A stretch of DNA of 64,000 nucleotides, from NCBI RefSeq assembly GCF_003173775.1, contig NZ_CP029552.1, positions 4,467,001 through 4,531,000 on the forward strand, in the 5' to 3' direction. How positions within the stretch are numbered: the stretch's first letter is position 1; the number at the start of each line of letters is the position of its first letter. A program made the position numbers and the translations under genes. Source of the stretch: Methylobacterium sp. 17Sr1-1 (GTDB taxonomy: Bacteria > Pseudomonadota > Alphaproteobacteria > Rhizobiales > Beijerinckiaceae). Shown piece after piece: positions 18,448 to 23,883 of this stretch. Under the pieces are notes generated by a model. That model saw only the letters and a list, made by a program, of their open reading frames with translations. It was not told where the DNA came from and ran no database searches.

Positions 18448-19617
18448 ATGCCCCAATCCGCCCTCCTCGCCCGCCTCCCCGACGCCCTGGCGGCCGCCCT
18501 GAAGGCCCCGGCTTACGCCGCCCACCTCGCCGGGATCGACCCCGCCACCGTGACCGACCGGGCGGCGCTCGCCCGCCTGCCGGTCCTGCGCAAGGGCGAG
18601 ATGCCGGCGCGCCAGCGCGAGGCCCTGCCCTTCGGCGGCTTCGTGCCGGGGCCGGCCGGGGAATTTCCCCGCCTGTTCACCTCGCCGGGGCCGATCTTCG
18701 AGCCGCAGCGGGCCGGCGAGGATCCGTGGGGCGGCGCGCCGGCGCTCGCGGCCGCGGGCTTCCGGGCCGGCGAGGTGGTGCTCAACACCTTCGGCTACCA
18801 CCTGACGCCGGGCGGCTTCATCTTCGACACCGCCGCGCGGGCGCTCGGCTGCGCGGTGATCCCGGCCGGGCCCGGCAACACCGAGCAGCAGCTCGACCTG
18901 ATCGAGGCCTACCGGCCCGCCGGCTATGTCGGCACGCCGGACTTCCTCAAGGTGCTGCTCGATGCCGGCGCCAAGGCCGGGCGGGACGTGTCGTCGCTGA
19001 CGAAGGCGCTCGTCTCGGGCGCCGCCTTCCCGCCCTCGCTCCAGGCCGAGTTCCGGGAGCGCGGCATCGCCGCAGCCCAAGCCTACGCCACGGCGGATGT
19101 CGGCTTCATCGCCTACGAGACGCCGGGGGAACCCGGCCTCCTCGTCAGTGACGGGCTGATCCTCGAGATCGTGCGGCCGGGCACCGGCGATCCGGTGCCG
19201 CAGGGCGAGGTCGGCGAGATCGTCGTCACGGTGCTCGACCTCGACCGGCCGCTCATCCGCTACGCGCTCGGCGACCTCACGGCGGCCTTGCCGGGGGGCA
19301 CGCGCATCCGCGGCTGGATGGGCCGGGCCGACCAGGCCGCCAAGGTGAAGGGCATGTTCGTGCGCCCCGAGCAGGTCGCCGAGATCGCCCGCCGCCACCC
19401 GGAGCTCGGGCGCCTGCGCCTGGTGGTGACCCGGGCCGACGAGGCCGACGTCATGACCCTGCGGGCGGAGACCGGGACGACCGACGCCGCCCTGGCCGAG
19501 GCGGTGACCGAGACCCTGCGGGCGGTGACGAAGCTGCGCGGCACGGTCGAGATCGTCGATCCCGGCAGCCTGCCCAACGACGGCAAGGTCATCGCCGACG
19601 AGCGGCCGGTGGGCTGA
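18448..19617 (+). CDS. PaaK-like AMP-dependent CoA ligase
   Basis: 389 aa, shaped like phenylacetate-CoA ligase: it activates an aromatic or other carboxylic acid to a CoA thioester through an acyl-adenylate. Visible landmarks are FTSPGP (in place of the Ser/Thr-rich P-loop), YVGTPDFLK, AYATADVGFIAYE (family 'YGxxE' region), and the hinge region IRYALGDLTA followed by IRGWMGRADQAAKVKGMFV. The P-loop is weaker than in canonical PaaK, so substrate and activity are uncertain. Such genes often sit next to Liv-type transporters with an acyl-CoA synthetase, as found here 7 kb downstream, so the two may serve one pathway. Confidence 0.78.
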   Translation: MPQSALLARLPDALAAALKAPAYAAHLAGIDPATVTDRAALARLPVLRKGEMPARQREALPFGGFVPGPAGEFPRLFTSPGPIFEPQRAGEDPWGGAPALAAAGFRAGEVVLNTFGYHLTPGGFIFDTAARALGCAVIPAGPGNTEQQLDLIEAYRPAGYVGTPDFLKVLLDAGAKAGRDVSSLTKALVSGAAFPPSLQAEFRERGIAAAQAYATADVGFIAYETPGEPGLLVSDGLILEIVRPGTGDPVPQGEVGEIVVTVLDLDRPLIRYALGDLTAALPGGTRIRGWMGRADQAAKVKGMFVRPEQVAEIARRHPELGRLRLVVTRADEADVMTLRAETGTTDAALAEAVTETLRAVTKLRGTVEIVDPGSLPNDGKVIADERPVG

Positions 19618-19878: not shown

Positions 19879-20736
19879 ATGTCGAACGTGGCGGGCAAAG
19901 CCTATGGCATGAACGTCGTGACGCCGATCCGGCCGCGATGGACTTGGCTCAATCGCTTCATCTTCATGGTGGCGCGGGTCTTTCCCGGGACTCTGTCGGG
20001 TCTTCTCGGCCTGTCGCTGATCCACTTCGCCCGCTGGGTGATCATCCGGCGCGACCAGTGGCCCCAGCGCGGCCAGCCGAAGCAGGTGCTCGCCAACGAC
20101 ACCATGCTGTTCTGCAGCAACTTCAACGGCACCTGGGACCAGTACATCGACGCGTTCGCGGACGGCATTCCCAACGGGCTCGACCTGTTCTGGTACGGCA
20201 GCACCAAGTACCCGAACTCGATCCCGATCACCCCGTTCAAGTCGTACATCCGGGCGAACCAGGTCGATACCGGCTACTACTACAACGCGACGCCGGGCAG
20301 CGGCCAGCGCGACATCAAGCTGGCGCTGCAGCTCGCCGCCGCCCTGCGGGCGGTGAGGCCGGACGGCGGCGACGACGCCCTCGCGGCGGCCTTCGACCGG
20401 GTGCTCGCCGAGAACCAGGGCTGCCTCGGCACGCCGGGCTACGGGCCGGTGGCGAGCCGCGACACCGCGATCGCCGACCTGCATCGCTGCGCCATGGTGC
20501 GGGCCCGCTGGGGCCGGGAGGGCAGCGGCCCGCCGCCGGTGGAGGTCGTCCAGGCGGCGCCCACCCAGAAAAGCGAGGTGCCCGCCCCGGACGGCGGGGG
20601 GCCCGCCCTGGAGAGCATCGAGGCGGCCCCGCGCGCCGACGCGTCGGCCTCGCAGGCCGGCGAGGTCCGGGCCACCGTCGAGGCCCTGATCAAGGGCCGC
20701 ACCCGCCGCAGCGCCGCGCGCCGCCAAGATCGCTGA
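19879..20736 (+). CDS. Unknown protein with one membrane segment, first of the peroxidase cluster
   Basis: 285 aa. I do not recognise the family. A hydrophobic stretch around residues 28-52 (FIFMVARVFPGTLSGLLGLS) is likely membrane-embedded. It is followed by a conserved-looking folded part with many aromatic residues (FCSNFNGTWDQYIDAF, LFWYGSTKYPN, GYYYNATPG), a helical segment, and a low-complexity Ala/Pro/Glu tail of about 70 residues. It is preceded by 260 bases of noncoding DNA that is less GC-rich than its surroundings and probably carries the promoter. Same strand as, and 40 bases before, another unknown gene and then a DyP peroxidase. Role unknown. Confidence 0.7.
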   Translation: MSNVAGKAYGMNVVTPIRPRWTWLNRFIFMVARVFPGTLSGLLGLSLIHFARWVIIRRDQWPQRGQPKQVLANDTMLFCSNFNGTWDQYIDAFADGIPNGLDLFWYGSTKYPNSIPITPFKSYIRANQVDTGYYYNATPGSGQRDIKLALQLAAALRAVRPDGGDDALAAAFDRVLAENQGCLGTPGYGPVASRDTAIADLHRCAMVRARWGREGSGPPPVEVVQAAPTQKSEVPAPDGGGPALESIEAAPRADASASQAGEVRATVEALIKGRTRRSAARRQDR

Positions 20737-20768
20737 CCGGACGCGCTGACCGGACGCGCTGACCAGGA
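20731..20768. repeat. Short tandem repeat, 13-bp unit, nearly three copies
   Basis: CGCTGACCGGACG is repeated twice in tandem and followed by a partial third copy (CGCTGACCAGG). The first unit contains the TGA stop of the upstream gene, and the partial copy leads into the ribosome site of the next gene. Copy number may vary and change the spacing between the two genes. Confidence 0.8.
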
Positions 20769-20776
20769 GAGCCGAG

Positions 20777-21706
20777 ATGCCGAACCTCGACGGCGGTCAC
20801 TACTTCTTCACCGCGATCGTGCCGATCAAGAACGACGTCATCGTCGAGCACGAGGGCCTGCGCAGCTCCCCCGTCCACATGGTGCGTGAGGCGCTGGAGA
20901 CGCTGCCCACCGCCCTGCAATCGCCGGAGGCGGTGAAGGTCGGGATCCAGAGCCCCTTCGCCCGCTCGTCGCGCACGCATTTCGCCCGTTTCGTCGTGCT
21001 CGACCAGCCGTTCTTCAACGGGCGCGACCACAGCGACGCGGTGTCGGACGCCGTGCATCAGACTGACCTGCTGATCCCGCAGGCCAACGACGTCCTCGCC
21101 TGCCCCTACCTCCTGGTGATGATCGACTTCGACCCGGAGGGGCCCGACCCGGCGCGGCGCTACTGCGAGGAGCTCTGGGGGCTGATGCCACGCGAGCTCG
21201 AGGCGGTGTTCCGCTTCTGCTACGGCTTCCGCGAGGTCCGCGACGGAAAGTCCTTCGCCGACTTCCTGCTGCCGTGCCAGGTCGAGACGACGATGCCGTT
21301 CAACGATTACTGGATCGGCAAGCCGCCCCTGTCGTCGCCCTCGCGCTGGCTGGTGATCGCCCCGCCGGCCCTCGGGGTGGCGCTGCCGCTCCTCGCCGCC
21401 CTCTTTCACCTCGTGCGCTGGCCCACCGGCCTGGTCCTGGCGCTGGTGCTCGGCCTCGCGGGCGTCGCGGTCGATTACTGGATCGTGATGCGCCGCGGCG
21501 CCCGGCCGCTGCCCGCGGCGCCGGACGCGACCCTGCGGCACGTGCTGAAGGCGCTCTACCTGCAGCAGGCCTTCACCCGCTTCGCCATCGCCCAGCAGGG
21601 GGCCACCCTGCCGGCGCGCGGGGCGGCGTTCCGGCAGTTCCTCGCCACCCACCGCCCGGCGGACATCGCCGGCCCGACGCAGGCCCCCGGGGTGATCGGC
21701 AGCTGA
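20777..21706 (+). CDS. Unknown protein with two C-proximal membrane segments, peroxidase cluster
   Basis: 309 aa, no family recognised. The first 190 residues look soluble (GGHYFFTAIVPIKND, ARFVVLDQPFFNGRDH, ACPYLLVMIDFDPEGPDP, LPCQVETTMPFNDYW). Two close hydrophobic segments follow around residues 192-235 (WLVIAPPALGVALPLL, then VLALVLGLAGVAVDYWIV), giving a hairpin in the membrane with both ends in the cytoplasm. A GGAGAG ribosome site lies before the ATG. Position between the other unknown protein and the DyP gene, all on one strand, suggests a shared task, perhaps holding the peroxidase system at the membrane; this is inference. Confidence 0.72.
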   Translation: MPNLDGGHYFFTAIVPIKNDVIVEHEGLRSSPVHMVREALETLPTALQSPEAVKVGIQSPFARSSRTHFARFVVLDQPFFNGRDHSDAVSDAVHQTDLLIPQANDVLACPYLLVMIDFDPEGPDPARRYCEELWGLMPRELEAVFRFCYGFREVRDGKSFADFLLPCQVETTMPFNDYWIGKPPLSSPSRWLVIAPPALGVALPLLAALFHLVRWPTGLVLALVLGLAGVAVDYWIVMRRGARPLPAAPDATLRHVLKALYLQQAFTRFAIAQQGATLPARGAAFRQFLATHRPADIAGPTQAPGVIGS

Positions 21707-21772
21707 CGCCGCCGGCCGGCCCCGCCCGACCGATCCCGGCCTGCGCGCCGCACCTCGCCCGGAACCCACGGC

Positions 21773-23470
21773 ATGACGACCCTCCTCGACCTCGCCGACA
21801 TCCAGGGCGGCATCCTGCGGGCCTATGGCCGGCAGGGCTTCCCCAAGGCCCGCGCCTTCTTCCTGACCGTGCGCGGCGACGGACGCGAGGGCCGCGCCTT
21901 CGTGGAGCGCTTGCGGCCGCTCGTCACCACCGCCGCGCGCTGGAAGGACCCCGAGCGCGGCGAGGCGCTGGTGCGCCGCCGCGCCCCGCGCCTCAAGGAC
22001 GTGGCCCGCGCCGAGGGCGAGGCCGACTATCCGGGCGAGGTGACCCTGGTGAAGCCGAAAGTGACGCTCAACCTCGCCTTCACCTTCTACGGCCTCCTCG
22101 CCCTCGGCGTCCCGGTGCGCACCCTGCGGGGCATGCCCGACGAGTTCATCGACGGCATGGCGCAGCGGGCCGAGATCCTCGGCGACGACCCCTTCCGCGA
22201 CAAACGCGACCCGGTCTGGCGCGACTCCTCCGGCGAGAACCGCGTCCATATCGTGGTGATGCTGAACGCGCAGATGGAGGCGGACGGCACGCCGGTCGCC
22301 GAGCTCGAGGCGGAGACGCAACGCCTGCGCGACCTGTGCGGGGCGTCCGGCGGCCAAGTCGTGCTCCTGGCCGGCACCGGGCCGGACGGGGCCGACTTCC
22401 AGGAGATGTCGGCGGTCCTGAGCCCGGGCGAGCACGGCCTCGCAGCCACCAACAAGGAGCATTTCGGGCTCTCGGACGGCTTCGGCGACCCGGTCTTCGA
22501 GGGCCAGTTCCCGCCGGCGCTGGAGGCGCTGCGGGTGATCGGCGGCGGCAAGCTGCTGCCCGACCAGACCTGGGCGCCGCTCGCCACCGGCGAGTTCCTG
22601 CTCGGCTACCCCGACGAGGCGCAGGAGGTCCCCGGCGCGGCGATGCCGATCGAGTTCAGCCGCAACGGCACCTTCATGGCCTATCGCAAGCTGCACGAGA
22701 ACGTCGAGAGCTTCGCGACCTACATCCGCCAGCAGGGCGCGCGCTATGCCGCGATCCACGGCATCCCCCAGGCGGAGGCCGAGGCGACCCTGCGCGCCAA
22801 GCTGGTCGGGCGCTGGGAGGACGGGATTCCGCTCCAGGCCGCGCCGACCCATGCCGACTGGCTGGCGTTCCAGGCGGAACTGGCCAAGGCCAAGGCCGCC
22901 CGGGACAAGCCGAAGCTCGCCGCGCTCGCCCTGCGCTACACCGACTTCACGTATCGCGACGACCTTTCCGGCACCACCTGCCCGGTCGCCGCCCATATGC
23001 GCCGGGCCAACCCGCGCGACATGCTCGACCCGCACGTCACCGACCCGGACCCGAAGGCCGGCGACGGCTCGGCGCTGGTCAACCGCCGCCGCATCCTGCG
23101 CCGCGGCCTGCCCTATGGCGGCCCGTCCCAGGGCGGCAGCGGCCGGGATTCCGGCGAGCAGGGCATCATCTTCCTGGCGATCTGCACCAACCTGTTCCGC
23201 CAGTTCGAGTTCGTGCAGCAGCAATGGATGCAGTACGGCCTCGACTTCAACGCCGGCAGCGACACCTGCCCGTTGATCGGCAACCACCCGAAGGGCGGCT
23301 CCCATCACGATCCGAAGCTCGTGATCGCGGTCGAGCCGGGCAGCGGGCAGCGGCCCTACATCTGCAACGACCTGCCCCAGCTCGTGGAGCCCCGCGGCGG
23401 CGACTACTTCTTCGTGCCGAGCATGACGGCGCTCCGCCTGATCGGCACGGGCATCACCGACCCGACCTAG
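21773..23470 (+). CDS. DyP-type heme peroxidase
   Basis: 565 aa, a long-form dye-decolourising peroxidase that oxidises substrates with H2O2. Key sites are intact: the distal GxxDG motif as GLSDG with D235, the proximal heme ligand H408 in CPVAAHMRRANPRD, the distal Arg in RRILRRGLPYG, and the FLAICTNLFRQFEFVQQQW helix. There is no signal peptide, so it is cytoplasmic unless a partner tethers it. It ends at a TAG only one base out of register with a downstream P450 C-terminus, so it may once have been part of a peroxidase-P450 fusion. Third in a run with two unknown membrane-linked proteins. Substrate unknown. Confidence 0.87.
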   Translation: MTTLLDLADIQGGILRAYGRQGFPKARAFFLTVRGDGREGRAFVERLRPLVTTAARWKDPERGEALVRRRAPRLKDVARAEGEADYPGEVTLVKPKVTLNLAFTFYGLLALGVPVRTLRGMPDEFIDGMAQRAEILGDDPFRDKRDPVWRDSSGENRVHIVVMLNAQMEADGTPVAELEAETQRLRDLCGASGGQVVLLAGTGPDGADFQEMSAVLSPGEHGLAATNKEHFGLSDGFGDPVFEGQFPPALEALRVIGGGKLLPDQTWAPLATGEFLLGYPDEAQEVPGAAMPIEFSRNGTFMAYRKLHENVESFATYIRQQGARYAAIHGIPQAEAEATLRAKLVGRWEDGIPLQAAPTHADWLAFQAELAKAKAARDKPKLAALALRYTDFTYRDDLSGTTCPVAAHMRRANPRDMLDPHVTDPDPKAGDGSALVNRRRILRRGLPYGGPSQGGSGRDSGEQGIIFLAICTNLFRQFEFVQQQWMQYGLDFNAGSDTCPLIGNHPKGGSHHDPKLVIAVEPGSGQRPYICNDLPQLVEPRGGDYFFVPSMTALRLIGTGITDPT

Positions 23471-23883
23471 AGGACGGCTCGATCGCGCCCCACCTGTTCG
23501 AGGCCCTGCGCTTCCGCCCGCTCAACCCGGTGATCTACCGCCGGGCGATGCGCGACGCGATCCCAGCCCCCGGTACCCTGCGCGCCCGCCGCATCCCGGA
23601 GGGCACGATGGTGTTCGCCGCCAACCTGCCGGCGATGTTCGATCCCCTGGCGGTGCCGCAGCCGGGCCGGTTCCGCACCGACCGGCCGTGGGACACCTAC
23701 ATGCTGTGGGGCCACAGCCTGCACCTGTGCTTCGGCGCGCATCTCAACCGCGCGACCCTGCCCGGCCTGCTCAAGCCCCTCCTCGCCCGCCCGTCCCCCT
23801 GCGCCGCGCCGAAGGCGCGCGGGCGCATCGACACGCAGGGCACGCCGTTCCCGGTCCACCTCGAGGTGGTGTTCGAGGCCTGA
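23471..23883 (+). pseudogene. C-terminal third of a cytochrome P450, out of frame with the DyP gene
   Basis: Read in the next frame, directly after the DyP stop, are about 137 codons with P450 landmarks: the K-helix E-x-x-R in FEALRFRPLNPVIYRR, the meander (PAMFDPLAVPQPGRF), and the heme-ligand loop WGHSLHLCFGAHLNRA with its cysteine, then the L-helix. The first 250 or so residues of a P450, including the oxygen-binding I-helix, are absent. There is no start codon or ribosome site. A single-base shift would fuse it to the DyP protein. Either a decayed fusion, a programmed frameshift, or a sequencing error. Confidence 0.75.

Follow-up and report, generated by a model that had tools for sequence, protein, structure and literature searches.

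A conserved gene set, in which two related proteins (U1 and U2) precede a DyP-type haem peroxidase and, in most loci, a cytochrome P450, is present in the window (the whole 64,000 nt stretch of Methylobacterium sp. 17Sr1-1 DNA analysed here), where alignment to relatives identifies the P450 piece as the remnant of a deleted gene. We tentatively propose that the set acts at the membrane in oxidising lipids, fatty acids among them, with DyP handling hydroperoxides and the P450 rearranging them without an electron-transfer partner, and that the window holds a P450-deleted copy. The earlier note had suggested an unnamed oxidative system tied to the membrane, and this is partly upheld: the gene set is conserved, neither of the two U families has a Pfam or NCBIfam name, and no description of the U1-U2-DyP-P450 set was found in the open-access papers searched.

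U1 (19879..20736, 285 aa), U2 (20777..21706, 309 aa), DyP (21773..23470, 565 aa) and the P450 piece (23470..23883) are all encoded on the + strand. The intergenic gaps are 40 bp (U1/U2) and 66 bp (U2/DyP), and the P450 frame starts inside the DyP stop codon, in a different reading frame. The single strand, the short gaps, the complete DyP and the out-of-register P450 piece flush with the DyP stop are all as the earlier note described them. The same gene order recurs in distant genomes, so that the arrangement is more than chance.

DyP peroxidases are widespread, and to our knowledge their natural substrates are largely unknown; we know of no fatty-acid dioxygenase activity among them. The DyP of the window is complete, as judged by its C-terminal end and catalytic residues. 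Asp235 (in GLSDG), His408 and Arg443 are invariant in all 19 aligned sequences, at positions matching those of solved DyPs, and the protein ends in DPT, as do all 18 aligned relatives. At E ≤ 1e-3 the orthologue profile finds 20 sequences of solved DyPs, with a best E of 1.7e-55 and 8re3, 7anv, 6fsl and 5c2i as the nearest, and shares with them the catalytic Asp/His/Arg and the C-terminal region. The window set differs from these peroxidases in its U partner proteins and in the scores of its DyP, which fall below the family cut-offs of TIGR01413 (76.1 bits, cut-off 100.5), PF21105 (25.1, cut-off 27.5) and PF20628 (19.5, cut-off 20).

Neither Pfam (E ≤ 10) nor NCBIfam (E ≤ 1) yielded a match to U1, which has 2341 homologues at E ≤ 0.001 and precedes U2 in all 24 loci that extend to it. 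It carries an HxxR motif (His49, Arg52), and its family shares the motif 'SNFxGxWDxYIDxF'. With distant members added, the U1 family is homologous to U2 (hhalign probability 97%, E 1e-10); with narrow profiles the match is weak (probability 23%, E 9e-4). The possibility that U1 and U2 are copies of a DyP domain was rejected, hhalign of either against DyP being insignificant (E about 0.2). Residues ~5–177 of U2 are predicted from its structure model to form a dimeric alpha/beta-barrel (ferredoxin-like) domain, and two membrane helices span residues ~190–241. Foldseek matches of this model were insignificant (best E 0.58), the top ones being antibiotic-biosynthesis-monooxygenase and polyketide-cyclase domains, while the U1 model was poor (pLDDT 52.8) and not fit for structure search. 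One membrane segment had been assigned to U1 and two to U2. The latter are clear (Kyte-Doolittle 2.2–2.3, windows from residues 192 and 219), but the former, at residues 27–45, is doubtful because its hydropathy is borderline (1.65) and it directly precedes and abuts IHFARW, a motif common to U1 relatives.

The linkage of these genes is a matter of direct observation. U1, U2 and DyP are adjacent in 23/23 loci where all three are visible, and in the narrow clade the P450 adjoins DyP in 20 of 24 loci. The U family occurs in 27 of 398 Pseudomonadota genomes. U genes lying mostly away from peroxidases were looked for as a refutation, which failed: a DyP gene lies within 5 kb of U in all 27 genomes, and for 43 of the 44 U rows, the exception being a 34-position fragment. 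All 44 U rows were used in the 5-kb count, and the dropped DyP and P450 rows, which were on other contigs or in some cases far away or fragmentary on the same contig, could not change any such count. A P450 is nearby in 16 of the 27 genomes (counting the window remnant as one) and 11 have no nearby P450 of the set's family, so the P450 is not obligatory. Several genomes carry the set fused. P450-U-U-DyP forms a single ORF of ~1,400 residues in Mesorhizobium-type genomes (L083, L084, L085), DyP and P450 share an ORF in L048, and P450, U and DyP matches fall within one open frame in G638, G663 and G831. Database labels on such fusions read 'cytochrome P450' or 'Dyp-type peroxidase'. In viral contigs, 77 pattern matches yielded no confirmed virus-borne copy.

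At the place corresponding to the window piece, close relatives have a complete P450 gene of ~450 codons, and by alignment to these the piece is a deletion remnant of a full-length gene. It retains the last 137 codons, from the K-helix to the C terminus, and aligns (84%) to residues 316–450 of the 452-aa P450 of L001 (Methylobacterium nonmethylotrophicum), where the four-gene set is intact. The piece amounts to ~30% of that gene, less than the half P450 first supposed. At the junction (23468..23475), placed by comparison with L001 12790–12860 and 13730–13830, the DyP stop is fused to P450 codon ~316 and ~950 bp of L001 are absent. As the match runs from residue 316 onwards, the ExxR motif (EALR, 23500..23511, + strand; E326–R329 of P450 alignment A6) and the haem-binding Cys loop (WGHSLHLCFG, 23707..23736, + strand; WGxGxHxCFG in close relatives) are present and the I-helix is absent. 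The piece therefore does not contain a complete P450 fold, the residues before ~316 having been deleted. It scores 13.6 bits against PF00067 (cut-off 22.8) and is the only match to its P450 family in the window genome. All 13 relatives in alignment A6 have Gly398 in the haem loop, where the remnant has Ser. With the I-helix and about 315 codons gone, a short working enzyme was rejected, and the piece is not a functioning half-enzyme but the stump of a deleted full-length gene. A single frameshifted DyP-P450 fusion gene in the window strain was also ruled out, because the two are separate genes in close relatives.

What remains able to function in the window strain is the U1-U2-DyP half alone. 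It is conceivable, though in our view somewhat unlikely, that the locus is a dying operon without present function, ended by the P450 deletion. The remnant with its altered haem loop would fit such a history, as would the loss of the P450 through a second, different deletion in G394, the closest relative read. Between these two P450-less genomes, pN/pS is 0.67 for U1 and 0.48 for U2, compared with 0.29–0.43 and 0.26–0.37 in the other five pairs, and the raised values suggest that the window copy may be decaying altogether. However, U1, U2 and DyP are open and full length with pN/pS still below 1, and U-DyP occurs without a nearby set-family P450 in 4/24 narrow-clade and 11/27 wide loci, indicating that the trio is able to persist without it.

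E326, R329 and C402 are invariant in 13/13 intact P450 relatives, which thus have the ExxR motif and Cys haem loop of P450s, and PF00067 was above cut-off in two of the three scanned. They share these features with bacterial P450 monooxygenases such as CYP113A1 and 5vws, the latter matched by the profile at E 5.6e-23, and differ in a borderline hydrophobic N terminus and, in the main clade, in having Pro-Thr in place of Asp/Glu-Thr in the I-helix. Across 38 genomes, Pro-Thr was found in 31, an acid in two and neither in five; four of 42 rows had been dropped from this count (the duplicates L041, L042 and L044, and a second, partial L095 row). The acid was absent from three of three further genomes. 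Controls were the best-scoring P450s from eight of these genomes. Of 30 loci, two belong to the set and four of the other 28 were unreadable; the acid of the acid-alcohol pair was present in 24/24 readable controls. The pair that is the hallmark of O2-activating P450 monooxygenases is therefore not characteristic of the set's P450s. Loss of the acid is no proof of peroxide use, since acid-alcohol pairs also assist H2O2-driven turnover according to a review (PMC9112060). When 1,555 ORFs with a minimum length of 100 aa were clustered across 31 loci, no redox-partner gene recurred, and no family occurred in more than four of the 31 loci beyond U, DyP, P450, GST and overlapping shadow ORFs. Ferredoxins of under 100 residues escape this clustering, so a small redox partner may exist.

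GST follows the P450 in 8/20 loci, and lipid-type genes are neighbours in a minority of loci. A patatin gene lies within 5 kb in 3/32 genomes (two genera; 0.40 expected) and a catalase-family gene in 2/32 (0.08 expected), one of which (G834) is below the family cut-off. Catalase-family genes adjoin U-DyP in L089 (G642), L094 (G666) and G834, the L094 gene being outside the 2/32 count. Their identification as catalase-related allene oxide synthases was rejected; the L089 gene weakly matched ordinary catalases and the L094 gene gave no match. G834 also has a relative of fatty-acid alpha-dioxygenase near the set (E 8e-57 to 4kvj), an enrichment that is not significant alone (one observed, 0.10 expected), and LCAT, FadL and RoxA-like genes are found near the set in some loci. 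Weighing against a lipid role, other neighbours include ABC-transporter and cyclase-TPR genes, GMC oxidoreductases (L098, L101) and a tyrosinase adjoining U-DyP (L097). The lipid-type neighbours, an enrichment seen in few loci, lend indirect support to the peroxidase-P450 lipid oxidation raised in the earlier note, although fatty-acid oxidation itself is still something that we infer, as is the function of the set as a whole.

In the proposed scheme, the two-helix anchor of U2 would sit in the membrane and U1, which would share its barrel domain, would help to hold DyP (and likewise the P450) against the inner membrane. The substrate would be either a lipid of the membrane or a fatty acid in free form. 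Reaction with H2O2 or a lipid hydroperoxide would convert DyP to compound I, which would power the oxidation; DyP would probably either produce or consume lipid hydroperoxides. The P450, in which the acid of the pair is missing, would use peroxide, either as a hydroperoxide isomerase or as a peroxygenase. Where a downstream GST is found, it would clear the electrophilic product.

Alternatively, the set could be a tailoring or aromatic-oxidation module (for pigment, polyketide or lignin-derived phenols), in which DyP oxidises a phenol, U1 and U2 serve as DABB-type oxygenases or cyclases that need no cofactor, and hydroxylation falls to the P450. The top, insignificant fold matches of U2, the tyrosinase and GMC oxidoreductase neighbours, and the activity on dyes and lignin models reported in a DyP paper (PMC8230527) agree with this. 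However, a scan of 44 neighbour proteins, selected from the larger total, turned up no polyketide or NRPS gene, the P450 lacks the O2-activating acid, and the membrane anchor and the patatin, LCAT and FadL neighbours are hard to account for, making such a module unlikely. Defence against lipid peroxidation, with DyP reducing membrane lipid hydroperoxides, P450 and GST removing the rest, and no signal or nutrient product, is consistent with the catalase-family and GST neighbours, with DyP being a peroxidase and with the U2 anchor. It is also unlikely, as a spread as patchy as 27/398 genomes is unusual for a general defence, and the alpha-dioxygenase and RoxA-like neighbours would produce oxidised lipids, not remove them. 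A sequencing or assembly artefact as the source of the P450 piece is very improbable, given that the window genome is a single contig of 100% completeness, that in G394 this gene is damaged in another way, and that the remnant additionally differs at a site that is invariant elsewhere.

The U family, found in our sample only beside DyP, in some genomes fused with a P450 that lacks the acid and sometimes surrounded by genes of lipid handling, points to a physiological role that can be tested for one branch of DyPs. For enzyme engineering, the set offers a natural P450 system of four domains that may be driven by peroxide.

The U proteins gave no sequence match to DABB/ABM domains and differ from them in the membrane anchor, the HxxR motif, the 'SNFxGxWDxYIDxF' motif (U1 family) and the partnership with DyP. 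In cyanobacteria, a 10S-dioxygenase works with a catalase-related hydroperoxide lyase (PMC13049297). This pair resembles the set in that a haem oxygenase is accompanied by a second, distinct haem enzyme that takes the hydroperoxide, and catalase-family genes are likewise found near U-DyP; the oxygenase superfamily differs, and the catalase neighbours are not tied to that lyase subfamily. The fungal dioxygenase-P450 fusions (linoleate diol synthases, Ppo; DOX-LDS/AOS/EAS), which according to PMC13049297 and PMC11719350 join a haem peroxidase-type enzyme to a P450 possibly acting without a reductase, are alike in this coupling and in their lipid context. Their partner is a cyclooxygenase-like (animal haem peroxidase) domain, whereas that of the bacterial set is DyP: PF03098, the cyclooxygenase-like dioxygenase domain of the fungal DOX-CYP family, had no match in the window genome and none in 22 of the 32 genomes with the set. 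The bacterial set also has two extra U domains, in the order P450-U-U-DyP. The set is likely a membrane-docked, DyP-based lipid-(hydro)peroxide module working in a way similar to these fusions, suggesting that bacterial peroxidase-P450 lipid oxidation tandems arose independently of those in fungi and animals. A fuller version, which we offer as more doubtful, is a two-haem lipid-oxidation machine in which a membrane-docked P450 without O2 activation is fed (hydro)peroxides by DyP on dimeric-barrel U scaffolds, all within one polypeptide in the case of Mesorhizobium and its relatives; U1 and U2 would be a new DyP-dedicated family, and the whole an independent bacterial counterpart of fungal Ppo.

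Two unnamed proteins, U1 (19879–20736) and U2 (20777–21706), are encoded in the window ahead of a complete DyP-superfamily peroxidase (DyP, 21773–23470), and the last 137 codons of a cytochrome P450 (23470–23883) follow in a frame differing from that of DyP, all on the forward strand. A P450 portion at the DyP stop, out of register, had been described in an earlier note and is borne out, as its frame opens within the DyP stop codon at 23470. U1 and U2 found no match in Pfam (E ≤ 10) or NCBIfam (E ≤ 1), are homologous to each other (hhalign probability 97%, E 1e-10) and have an HxxR motif in common. The window DyP scores under each of the curated cut-offs (PF21105, 25.1/27.5; PF20628, 19.5/20; TIGR01413, 76.1/100.5); a profile of 19 DyP orthologues matched solved DyPs, the best being 8re3 (E 1.7e-55), and Asp235 (in GLSDG), His408 and Arg443 are invariant in 19/19 orthologues. 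Ahead of U1 and in the same orientation (18448–19617) lies an AMP-binding ligase gene resembling phenylacetate-CoA ligase, and among 26 loci compared a counterpart adjoins the set only in L001 and L010. The window genome also carries one full catalase and three short catalase-like matches (G000:C1 982848, 3509022, 5574684).

Scanning genome contigs with U2 located 25 loci, including those of Methylobacterium, Sphingomonas, Caulobacter, Agrobacterium, roseomonads, Rhodobacteraceae and Burkholderia; set-bearing relatives include M. nonmethylotrophicum (L001), M. tarhaniae (L010) and M. haplocladii (L011). U1 is upstream of U2 in all 24 loci whose contig extends that far, DyP is downstream of U2 in 24/24, and the whole U1-U2-DyP trio can be seen in 23. 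A P450 of this family adjoins DyP in 20/24 loci, directly downstream on the same strand in 19 and on the opposite strand in L022; none was found beside DyP in the other four checked (L003, L005, L008, L021). A glutathione S-transferase (GST) gene follows the P450 in 8 of the 20, by Pfam assignment in three. Within the genus, U2 was found in 5/111 genomes, and a diverged U-DyP-P450 set in three additional genomes (G386, G406, G433) was missed by the U2 profile. The U1 profile matched 8/385 genomes of the class, with DyP adjoining in all eight, a P450 of this family in six and the remnant in the window genome; no such P450 was seen in the stretch examined beside U1-DyP in G320.

A wider U-family profile matched 27/398 Pseudomonadota genomes. 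Loci were picked by similarity to U, not to DyP, and DyP lies within 5 kb of U in 27/27. A P450 of this family lies within 5 kb of U in 16/27, one being the window remnant. The genes are also found fused: L083, L084 and L085 each have a single ORF of 1,411–1,535 residues in the order P450-U-U-DyP, DyP and P450 share one ORF in L048, and matches to P450, U and DyP fall within one open frame in G638, G663 and G831. Used as a protein query, the U-U portion of the L083 fusion gave 1,325 proteins; among the 120 listed, many are about 1,400 residues long, come from Mesorhizobium as well as from Nitratireductor, Chelativorans and Aquamicrobium, and are annotated either as 'cytochrome P450' or as 'Dyp-type peroxidase family'. 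L033 (1480–3261) has three U-like segments in a row ahead of a DyP that, judged by eye, is like the solved 8re2/8re3 type, with no P450 in the stretch read.

In L001, a 452-codon P450 gene starts 7 bp past the DyP stop. The window piece corresponds only to residues 316–450 of its product, so about 950 bp have been lost. ExxR and the haem cysteine are kept, the I-helix is gone, and a haem-loop glycine invariant in 13 relatives (alignment A6) is serine. The piece is the sole match to its P450 family in the window genome (one contig, 6.54 Mb). The piece is the remnant of a deleted gene, full-length in L001, rather than half of a functioning enzyme, and only U1-U2-DyP remain of the set in this strain. 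Among relatives with DNA read, the closest is G394 (DyP 90% identical), though a protein match 93% identical to U1 (P0001) indicates that closer ones exist. The P450 of G394 is reduced to some 38 codons at its start and 23 at its end. The two lesions are not derivable from each other, and the gene has therefore been cut by two separate deletions. Between these two P450-less genomes, pN/pS is 0.67 for U1 (other five pairs, 0.29–0.43), 0.48 for U2 (0.26–0.37) and 0.42 for DyP (other pairs, 0.35–0.45), which hints, on few substitutions, at weaker constraint on U1 and U2 after P450 loss. The remnant shows no clear difference (0.58 and 0.64 against two intact genes; intact pair, 0.55).

The residue before the conserved I-helix threonine, an acid in O2-activating P450s, was scored in the set. 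Pro-Thr occurs in 31/38 genomes and Asp-Thr in two (L047, L051), the other five being without acid; three further sets of the genus have Pro-Gln. Control P450s outside the set, from eight of the same genomes, have Asp or Glu in 24/24 readable cases (28 fetched). Related P450s at other loci of the genus keep the acid (Glu-Thr) in 8/8 read, with no U or DyP match in the stretches fetched. Upstream genes were scanned at three of these (L149, L151, L155) and include a RoxA-like c-type cytochrome, whose nearest solved structure at L151 is 4b2n, which we take to be the rubber oxygenase RoxA. This sister branch lies near a RoxA-like cytochrome, not U-DyP, as if the P450 family paired with different haem oxygenases.

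The absent acid may point away from O2 activation in the set P450s. One review (PMC9112060) states that, when turnover is driven by O2, disrupting the acid-alcohol pair hinders conversion of compound 0 to compound I; it also credits such pairs with assisting H2O2-driven turnover, so the absence is suggestive and no proof. Fungal and mammalian P450s using hydroperoxide or endoperoxide are described as self-sufficient (PMC13049297), and no recurrent redox-partner gene was seen near the set among ORFs of at least 100 aa. From these points together, we infer that the set P450 is a hydroperoxide isomerase or peroxygenase.

Neighbours of divergent U-DyP loci were scanned with Pfam using 44 proteins, a subset selected by position and size. 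They include patatin (L093, L048), FadL/TodX (L093), LCAT (L047), a RoxA-like cytochrome (L086), catalase family (L089, L094), GMC oxidoreductase (L098, L101), tyrosinase (L097) and ABC transporters (L092, L049); at L090, an animal-haem-peroxidase gene is closest to fatty acid alpha-dioxygenase (E 8e-57). Within 5 kb, patatin occurs in 3/32 genomes, two of one genus (expected 0.40 under uniform placement, Poisson p 0.008), catalase in 2/32, one under cut-off (expected 0.08, p 0.003), and alpha-dioxygenase in 1/32 (expected 0.10, p 0.10), these being single-family p values from few loci for families chosen after the neighbours had been viewed. The counts support a lipid context for the set. Genes for class III cyclases, TPR proteins or both are found repeatedly by U-DyP in rhizobial-type and other genomes (Pfam; L083 2712–4490, L085 1836–3608, L096 11683–14874, L094 1790–5218; TPR only, L084 1158–2906, L100 4953–6611), and in L083, L084, L085 and L100 they are the immediate upstream neighbours; the association may be regulatory. 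In G148:C107 (3334–7258), a second DyP has a patatin gene on one side and a weak catalase-family match on the other, with no U match on the contig, so the grouping of lipid and haem genes with DyP may not be confined to loci of the U family.

Beyond gene linkage, the mechanism is what we infer. Fatty acid would come from patatin/LCAT or FadL where these are present; U2 (and U1) would hold DyP at the membrane; DyP would form compound I and oxidise lipid or use lipid hydroperoxide; the P450, encoded alongside or fused to DyP, would rearrange the hydroperoxide with no need of NAD(P)H; and GST, where present, would remove the product.

No description of an architecture of DyP, dedicated partner family and P450 was found in the open-access papers searched. 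In its proposed working, the DyP-P450 set is similar to the fungal DOX-CYP family, but it is not a member, because its peroxidase belongs to another superfamily.
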